Assembly (NCBI RefSeq): GCF_017355785.1
Contig: NZ_JAFEWE010000015.1
Location: 1-64,000, forward strand
Length of the DNA: 64,000 bases
From: Desertivirga arenae
Lineage (GTDB): Bacteria > Bacteroidota > Bacteroidia > Sphingobacteriales > Sphingobacteriaceae
Direction: 5' to 3'
Shown: piece after piece, positions 13,608 to 22,369 of the stretch
Numbering within the stretch: position 1 is the stretch's first letter
Layout of the letters: each line of letters starts with the position of its first letter
Position numbers and translations under genes: made by a program
The notes under the pieces: generated by a model
The model's input: only the letters and a program-made list of their open reading frames with translations
Told to the model about the DNA's origin: nothing
The model's database searches: none

Positions 13608-13640
13608 CTTGTAATACTTGTTTTTTTATCAATACTTTTG
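13608..13640 (+). promoter_or_regulatory. Promoter of the arginine operon
   Basis: CTTG at 13608-13611 (-33) and TACTTTTG at 13633-13640 (-7, exact TAnnTTTG) are separated by 21 bp, within the phylum's 19-21 bp range. Transcription would start near 13645, leaving about 285 nt of leader before the first enzyme gene. This leader holds the Arg-rich peptide frame. Confidence 0.72.
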
Positions 13641-13683
13641 CATCGCTTTAAACTAATTATTGCACTGTAAGTCAAAGACAGAA

Positions 13684-13815
13684 ATGAACGTATCAATTTT
13701 AAATATCACAACAGCTGAACAGCCGAAAAACGGCTTTGTATGCGTTATGGTACGTCCACGCTTCAGTGACAAACTCATCTTTCGTCCCCGACGACCGTTC
13801 ATGCCCAGATTTTGA
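13684..13815 (+). CDS. Arg-rich leader peptide of the arginine operon (candidate attenuator/arrest peptide)
   Basis: A 43-codon frame from ATG 13684 to TGA 13813-13815, about 40 nt after the predicted transcription start and 117 bp before the first arginine gene. The first 23 residues are unremarkable; the last 20 carry six arginines (R24, R26, R34, R36, R37, R42), ending FRPRRPFMPRF with several prolines. Codons are CGT, CGC, CGT, CGA, CGA, AGA, so rarer codons cluster at the end. A small hairpin AGCCG-A5-CGGCT (13721-13735) lies inside the frame and TCGTC-CCC-GACGA (13782-13794) covers the Arg codons. Arg codons ahead of an arginine operon imply ribosome-mediated sensing; whether by attenuation or nascent-chain arrest is open, since no clear terminator follows. 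Confidence 0.7.
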   Translation: MNVSILNITTAEQPKNGFVCVMVRPRFSDKLIFRPRRPFMPRF

Positions 13816-13932
13816 TTTCTGATTTGGCAGCCCTTTTGATGTACCGTTTCGGTAAAATAATAATTAACAATTTTTCTGGCACCTTAAAGACAACTATTAA
13901 AGTCTTATTCCGTATAAGCGGATTTTGAAAAA

Positions 13933-14613
13933 ATGAACGTAAACGATTTCTCTATAGTAGTAGCATCTGACGCGCATACAGGATATGCAGAACAGATTTG
14001 TGATGAAATGGCTGAATCGGCAAAAGCTCGGGGAACCGGTATTGCGCGTCGTAGCCCACAGTATGTAGCAGATAAAATGCGTGAAGGGAAAGCCGTGATT
14101 GCTTTGCATAACGACGGTACCTGGGCAGGGTTTTGCTATATAGAGACCTGGAGTCATGAACAGTTTGTAGCCAATTCAGGCTTGATTGTTAATCCTGCTT
14201 TCAGGAAAGCAGGGCTGGCAAAAGCCATCAAGAAGCGAATTTTTGAACTTTCAAGAGAAAAATACCCAGACGCAAAGATATTCGGATTAACAACCGGCTT
14301 GGCTGTAATGAAAATTAACTCTGAGCTAGGATACGAGCCTGTAACCTATTCAGAACTTACACAGGATGATAATTTCTGGAAGGGATGCCAAAGCTGTGTT
14401 AATTACGAGATCTTAACCATGAAGGGTCGTAAGAACTGTCTCTGTACAGCGATGCTTTATGATCCAGTTGAAAAACAACAACAGGAGGAAGAAAAAGCCG
14501 CACCTGTAAAAGAACAGGAAATGACCCATAAAGCGAACTTGCTTGAACGTATTGAAGATTCAATTAAACGTTCTGTAAAATCTATAGCATTTTTATCAAC
14601 TCTTATTCCCTAA
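13933..14613 (+). CDS. GNAT-family N-acyltransferase, probable N-acyl (succinyl/acetyl) glutamate synthase
   Basis: A 226-residue GNAT protein opening the arginine operon, 19 bp before argG. The acetyl-CoA-type fold is visible in WAGFCYIETWSHEQFVANSG and in the cofactor loop VNPAFRKAGLAKAIKKRIFEL near residues 87-106. Lacking an argA or argJ gene in the cluster, it is the natural candidate for the first step, acylation of glutamate. An unusual cysteine set follows the fold: C152-X2-C155 and C169-X-C171, spaced like a metal or redox site. Residues 180-205 are Glu/Gln/Lys-rich. Acyl donor unknown; the succinyl prediction follows from the ArgF' residue 90 discussed elsewhere. Confidence 0.8.
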   Translation: MNVNDFSIVVASDAHTGYAEQICDEMAESAKARGTGIARRSPQYVADKMREGKAVIALHNDGTWAGFCYIETWSHEQFVANSGLIVNPAFRKAGLAKAIKKRIFELSREKYPDAKIFGLTTGLAVMKINSELGYEPVTYSELTQDDNFWKGCQSCVNYEILTMKGRKNCLCTAMLYDPVEKQQQEEEKAAPVKEQEMTHKANLLERIEDSIKRSVKSIAFLSTLIP

Positions 14614-22003: not shown

Positions 22004-22369
22004 ATGGATAAAGAAATACTAAAGAAACGAACAAAAGCTTTTTCTATAGAAATAGCTCATTTAGTACAATCTTTACCTTTTAATATCATTAACAAGGATT
22101 ATTCAAATCAAATCATACGCTGTTCTAGTTCTGTAGGAGCTAATTACAGAGCGGCATGCAGGGCGAAATCAAAGGCAGATTTCATTAATAAGCTAAAGAT
22201 CGTTGAAGAGGAACTAGACGAAAGCATGTTCTTTCTTGAACTTTTAGTCGAATTCAATCAGGATCAAAAGACAACAATTATTAAAACCTGGAAGGAAGCT
22301 AACGAACTTCTTTCTATCATTGTATCTTCAATTACAACACTGCGGAAGGCAATGGCAAGTCAATCGTAA
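22004..22369 (+). CDS. Four-helix-bundle protein (23S rRNA intervening-sequence protein family)
   Basis: A 121-residue all-helical protein of the family once named 'S23 ribosomal protein' and known from ORFs inside 23S rRNA intervening sequences; it is also related to the Avd accessory protein of diversity-generating retroelements. Recognised by IIRCSSSVGANYRAACRAKSKADFINKLKIVEEELDES-type order (conserved SSSVGANY, RA, SKADF, EEExDES blocks) and by its length. Its molecular role is unknown. It interrupts the arginine operon between argE and argH and is enclosed by a perfect 20-bp inverted repeat whose right arm begins one base after the stop, which suggests a small mobile or once-mobile cassette. 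Confidence 0.9.
   Translation: MDKEILKKRTKAFSIEIAHLVQSLPFNIINKDYSNQIIRCSSSVGANYRAACRAKSKADFINKLKIVEEELDESMFFLELLVEFNQDQKTTIIKTWKEANELLSIIVSSITTLRKAMASQS

Follow-up and report, generated by a model that had tools for sequence, protein, structure and literature searches.

A candidate arginine-responsive leader peptide, ArgL, ahead of the arginine operon in Desertivirga arenae and other Bacteroidota

Control by leader peptides is known from several systems. The nearest experimentally supported parallel to the locus described here is the orf34-speF leader of Salmonella, which combines two Arg codons with a pause at the stop codon and a hairpin immediately beyond it (PMC6386406). At termination itself, TnaC blocks release factor 2 at UGA (PMC8429421), and the penultimate Arg of apidaecin contacts the release factor (PMC11347161). 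Within the Bacteroidota, leader-peptide attenuation at amino acid operons has been reported in general terms for Flavobacterium psychrophilum (PMC9723704). The initial annotation of our locus gave the Arg leader peptide as having no known description in the phylum; we likewise found none in the open-access journal literature searched. Here, we describe a leader ORF that probably encodes a cis-acting, arginine-responsive peptide controlling the arginine operon. We named this peptide ArgL, and it would represent a new family with unusual features.

The window that we analyzed is a 64-kb stretch of Desertivirga arenae DNA. The features around the leader are as follows.

13609..13640, + strand: Bacteroidota-type promoter, TTG, 21 nt, TACTTTTG (TAnnTTTG), read directly; the element is also present in aligned relatives.
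13684..13815, + strand: leader ORF of 43 codons plus a TGA stop, with the conserved C-terminus KLIFRPRRPFMPRF; read directly, with homologues before the same gene.
13789..13794, + strand: tandem CGA CGA Arg codons, residues -8/-7 from the stop; likely control codons, invariant in relatives.
13802..13829, + strand: hairpin P1, whose loop contains the leader stop codon and whose 5' arm is coding; almost every relative is predicted to have it.
13807..13815, + strand: AGA TTT TGA, the penultimate Arg, last residue, and stop codon; Arg(-2) is conserved, and TGA is conserved in the family.
13842..13854, + strand: predicted hairpin P2, TACCG-TTT-CGGTA; relatives also have a hairpin here, but its sequence differs.
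13887..13906, + strand: predicted hairpin P3, AAGAC...GTCTT; a run of U follows it in relatives.
13909..13926, + strand: predicted hairpin P4, TCCG-TATAAG-CGGA plus TTTT, weakly terminator-like or start-codon proximal.
13933..14613, + strand: first operon gene, a GNAT acetyltransferase (Pfam Acetyltransf_1), with argG next.

Read directly from the window, the leader peptide is MNVSILNITTAEQPKNGFVCVMVRPRFSDKLIFRPRRPFMPRF, followed by TGA, and its last residues are FRPRRPFMPRF. Its Arg residues are at positions 24, 26, 34, 36, 37, and 42, six within the final 20 residues, and are encoded in order by CGT, CGC, CGT, CGA, CGA, and AGA. The frame, its Arg-rich tail, and the late CGA and AGA codons are exactly as first annotated. 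The promoter consists of TTG at 13609-13611, a 21-nt spacer, and TACTTTTG at 13633-13640, which fits TTG-n19/21-TAnnTTTG; it ends 43 nt before the leader ORF. An element of this phylum type had been claimed ahead of the leader, and our alignment of relatives found it conserved there. Transcription would be expected to start a few bases downstream of this predicted promoter. Just 5' of the leader start codon, the stretch CACTGTAAGTCAAA at 13660-13675 is also conserved in close relatives.

Gene annotation confirmed that nine arginine/proline genes follow the leader: GNAT, argG, argC, argD, an N-acetylornithine-carbamoyltransferase-like gene, argB, proC, argE, and argH, where the argF-like, argD-like, and argE-like genes scored below curated cutoffs. 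The GNAT acetyltransferase matched no curated N-acetylglutamate synthase model. Judging by context, its product is probably N-acetylglutamate synthase, and the position of the gene suggests that a GNAT protein fills this role in Bacteroidota. An odd passenger in the operon is a TIGR02436 four-helix-bundle gene at 22004-22369, between argE and argH. The leader places several end-product codons in a short ORF just before its own operon, as attenuator leaders do.

Chance ORFs of similar size are common in the window, so the leader ORF by itself proves little. Its conservation in relatives makes it more than chance. A tblastn search of 151 family genomes returned leader homologues with E values down to 1e-17. 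At 24 family loci the same ORF stands before the same gene, with a variable N-terminal part and a conserved C-terminus that reads (E)KLVLRxRRPFMPR[VTAF] with small variations. The stop codon is TGA at all 24, while only 1 of the 16 window genes counted ends in TGA. In the family set, pN/pS fell from 0.48 for the final 20 codons to 0.33 for the final 12; in the Pedobacter set, it was 0.48 over the whole leader ORF. In each set the third codon positions changed more than the others, and this excess supports selection on the reading frame. From these comparisons, we conclude that the leader is not a chance ORF. The peptide had no match in Pfam or NCBIfam, known leader-peptide families included. 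Rfam searches gave no match at the gathering threshold or at E values up to 1, and a known riboswitch or attenuator family was dropped as the identity of the leader.

We then asked how far the leader extends. A strict DNA pattern, CGACGACCNNTHATGCC, was rejected as a class-wide marker because it is nearly confined to the family, so we established breadth through the first gene instead. Genera that lacked an obvious match had variant tails before the same gene: SPSRRRPYMPRV in Mucilaginibacter, LRFRRPILPRA in Sphingobacterium and Parapedobacter, and NRQNYTPRI in Pedobacter, whose leaders keep just two Arg among their final ten residues. Small ORFs before the first gene in further families and orders ended in ...VPFFPRR, ...RRCYFHRI, ...RRNRFTFRV, ...SRRPRI (Chitinophaga), ...SRVTRVRA (Myroides), and ...RQVYPLRA (Adhaeribacter); another order had ...PRP. 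Of 196 arg-operon loci from several families and orders, defined by argG downstream, 148 had a leader with Arg(-2) and two or more Arg toward its end. At the remaining 48, an ATG-only ORF search found no matching leader. None of 10 acetyltransferase paralogues outside arg operons had a leader. Thus, the leader goes with the arg operon and not with the acetyltransferase. Relatives both near and far retain the frame, its position, and its Arg codons; the initial annotation would have been refuted by a lack of such conservation in close relatives and is instead supported. Some variant leaders end in Arg-Pro-stop, mostly AGG CCC TAG/TGA (L144, L240, L244, L245, L248, L249, and L262), and in these a hairpin encloses the stop codon or closes near it; L244 and L245 have one Arg in the entire peptide.

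The tails share residues that are fixed when counted from the stop codon. From 180 loci, we took 35 representatives with fewer than 7/16 identical tail residues and compared them with a null in which residues were shuffled within the last ten. Arg content had guided the choice of candidate ORFs, a bias for which the shuffle corrects; the aromatic position had no bearing on that choice. Arg occurred at -2 in 29 of the 35 divergent leaders (shuffle mean, 11.1; P < 5e-5), Phe, Tyr, or Trp at -5 in 17 (shuffle mean, 4.8; P < 5e-5), and Arg at -8 in 20 (shuffle mean, 11.1; P = 0.001). All six Arg codons were used about equally at -2, which argues that the amino acid itself is selected there. Some leaders from another order have just one Arg in all, located at -2; such one-Arg leaders are few, and two share a genus. 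The stop codons of the divergent leaders are TGA, TAA, or TAG.

Codon choice is also conserved. CGA is read by the inosine-34 tRNA-Arg, and it is read slowly. It is the rarest Arg codon in the window genes (16/174) and makes up 37 of 109 Arg codons in the leaders versus 35 of 394 in adjacent genes (P = 1e-9), an enrichment of about fivefold. CGA CGA stood at -8/-7 in all 22 distinct sequences of the window's group and in 8/8 Sphingobacterium/Parapedobacter leaders; it was found one codon earlier in 28/28 leaders of the Mucilaginibacter-type group (g14). The Pedobacter set had CGG CAA at -8/-7 in 29/29. Neighboring Arg codons varied while those at -8/-7 stayed fixed. The invariance of this rare pair suits control codons, and it could also have an RNA-level cause. 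We looked for an RNA partner complementary to the CGACGA hexamer and found no consistent position in the window's group, so conservation as a pairing element was set aside.

Several hairpins are predicted between the leader and the first gene. Pairs in P1 were counted from anchored ends because a MAFFT alignment set the 3' arms out of register. Its compensatory pairs included ATGCC/GGCAT, CTGCC/GGCAG, TTGCC/GGCAA, and CTACC/GGTAG. Eight cells were altered on both sides, a number matched in 8 of 5,000 shuffles, which leave relatedness in. The stability of P1 relative to shuffles was modest, with a mean z of -0.6 to -1.5 in a tight window and with relatedness again remaining in the shuffles. When folding was constrained by masking a ribosome at the stop codon, the freed P1 arm took up no alternative pairing that recurred. 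RNAalifold did not return a single consensus structure for two large genus sets because sequence turnover is too fast. In nine loci from several other families (L072, L074, L083, L086, L087, L144, L156, L237, and L238), a second hairpin just past the leader stop has the conserved loop CC-UAYGY-GG. In some families the second-hairpin loop and the 3' arm of the stop-codon hairpin are complementary (AGCGTAA/TTACGCT in L076), and a switch pairing is possible.

The initial annotation saw no run-of-U terminator before the first gene. This holds only loosely: there is a weak P4 with a short U-run just before that gene, at -5.0 kcal/mol in the window and stronger in relatives, where it reaches -7.0 with T5. 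Terminator-like hairpins with U-runs were predicted in 92% of the window's group versus 23% of shuffles. No such hairpin was found in the Pedobacter loci, which are without P4, and a universal intrinsic terminator was dropped as a candidate on this ground. Pedobacter-type loci (L204-L233) have a conserved CAATTAA and a U-run then CGTTA just before the first-gene start, without a terminator hairpin. The interval between leader and gene is C rich and G poor in all groups, with a median C/G ratio of 1.4 to 1.9 compared to 0.98 in control regions. This is a weak hint of Rho for the groups, although not for the window itself, whose own interval is not C rich (C, 0.162; G, 0.154).

Sequence comparison thus shows a small ORF that is under frame selection and tied to the arg operon, with a stop-relative tail, a preference for rare CGA, and a covarying P1. 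Arginine sensing through ribosome position is the most likely function of ArgL. When arginyl-tRNA is low, the ribosome would stall at CGA CGA (-8/-7), just 5' of P1. By usual dimensions, a ribosome whose A site holds the first CGA would extend to about the start of P1, leaving P1 free to form at least partly. When arginine is ample, the ribosome would reach the leader stop codon and cover the upstream arm of P1. Its conserved tail residues (Arg at -8, aromatic residue at -5, Arg at -2, and stop) suggest that the peptide may slow its own release and prolong this stop-codon state. P1 would therefore report the position of the ribosome, and the downstream hairpins would convert it to operon on at low arginine and off at high arginine. 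The most likely output for the window's group is early termination of transcription at P3/P4, which are weak hairpins with U-runs. Where a lineage is without these terminators, Rho or translation initiation would serve instead. The output step does not appear to be conserved because terminator-like hairpins are absent in Pedobacter, and intrinsic termination, Rho, and translation may each serve in different lineages.

The initial annotation left classic attenuation and nascent-peptide arrest side by side, and the comparison yielded evidence for both. The invariant rare CGA CGA would favor a codon-level sensor; the stop-relative residues and the six-codon Arg(-2) would favor a peptide-level role at termination. 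If classic attenuation acted alone, Arg codons would sense charged tRNA by stalling and the tail would matter only as RNA and as the site of those codons. The synonymous-level retention and enrichment of tandem CGA and the terminator-like hairpins of the window's group fit this explanation. However, pure Arg-codon attenuation would not predict the aromatic residue at -5 or an Arg placed exactly at -2. Moreover, Pedobacter leaders have two Arg in the last ten residues and no terminator, and some leaders of another order have one Arg, at -2. We therefore rather doubt that attenuation suffices. Alternatively, the finished tail could block the release factor once the ribosome is at the leader stop, perhaps only with free arginine bound, as in TnaC or SpeFL, or could trap the factor as apidaecin does, with codon stalling secondary. 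Consistent with such an arrest, residues are fixed relative to the stop, the C-terminus is conserved beside a variable N-terminus, TGA ends all family leaders, and the penultimate Arg is the apidaecin residue that contacts the release factor (PMC11347161). In addition, RRPFMPRF matches apidaecin PRPPHPRL at four of the last eight positions. However, this four-of-eight match occurs in Sphingobacteriaceae types only, and with Arg(-2) set aside the resemblance falls short of significance among the divergent leaders (P = 0.28). Use of TGA, TAA, or TAG by the leaders also counts against it, and arrest does not require strict conservation of CGA CGA. Arrest as the main mechanism is thus a tentative possibility, well short of an even chance.

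Two further explanations dispense with arginine sensing. Leader translation might matter only because it is coupled to, or allows reinitiation at, the first gene, or because it covers a Rho site. The C-rich, G-poor interval of all groups is in keeping with this, but the interval in the window is not C rich, about 80 to 150 nt is long for reinitiation, and the Arg enrichment and fixed Arg positions are left unexplained; we consider it improbable. The ORF might instead encode a functional small protein with no part in regulation, or be what is left of such a gene. Although the Pedobacter set had a whole-ORF pN/pS below 1 (0.48), conservation is concentrated in the last 12 codons with an N-terminus free to vary, the place of the ORF ahead of the arg operon is fixed, and neither Pfam nor NCBIfam has a match. 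This explanation is very improbable.

How, then, does a sensor based on ribosome position compare with the described systems? Like orf34-speF (PMC6386406), ArgL is a small leader ORF with two consecutive Arg codons and an Arg codon beside the stop. The logic that we propose for it is also the same, namely, an arginine-responsive hairpin just past the stop that forms according to ribosome position. Unlike ArgL, SpeFL is a gammaproteobacterial DUF2618 peptide that controls polyamine synthesis and has its Arg codons at 12-13 and not in the tail; ArgL has no match to DUF2618. With TnaC-type leaders (PMC8429421), ArgL shares stop-relative conserved residues, UGA in the window's group, and a regulatory step proposed at termination. 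However, TnaC induces a catabolic operon on tryptophan, there is no evident sequence similarity, and arrest by ArgL is putative. Apidaecin, a type II PrAMP (PMC11347161), resembles ArgL in its penultimate Arg, its most constrained C-terminal eight residues, and its Pro/Arg-rich tail, but it is an insect antimicrobial that acts from outside. As in trpL/hisL-type attenuators, those reported for F. psychrophilum (PMC9723704) included, a leader peptide rich in the end product lies upstream of a biosynthetic operon. Unlike these, ArgL has conserved residues outside the control codons and a stop-codon hairpin, and any terminator/antiterminator switch in it is putative. Finally, the rbfL leader of Staphylococcus aureus senses arginine limitation through rare Arg codons in a short upstream ORF (PMC13009471), as ArgL would; it blocks the ribosome-binding site of a biofilm regulator and belongs to an unrelated gene and phylum.

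A bolder version of the ribosome-position model would make ArgL a phylum-wide sensor with two opposed ribosome positions 7 or 8 codons apart: a CGA stall at low arginine and, at sufficient arginine, a self-imposed release-factor arrest through the apidaecin-like penultimate Arg. We think that this combination is rather unlikely. If it were true, ArgL would be to bacteria what the arginine attenuator peptide is to fungi, and it would come from a phylum in which the mechanisms of attenuation have hardly been studied. The ArgL tail variants form a large natural series for separating codon-level from peptide-level sensing. They also bear on whether bacteria use penultimate-Arg termination-arrest tails of their own, as apidaecin does from outside. 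If the regulation proposed here is correct, the Bacteroidota would gain a defined leader that senses arginine for the control of its de novo synthesis.
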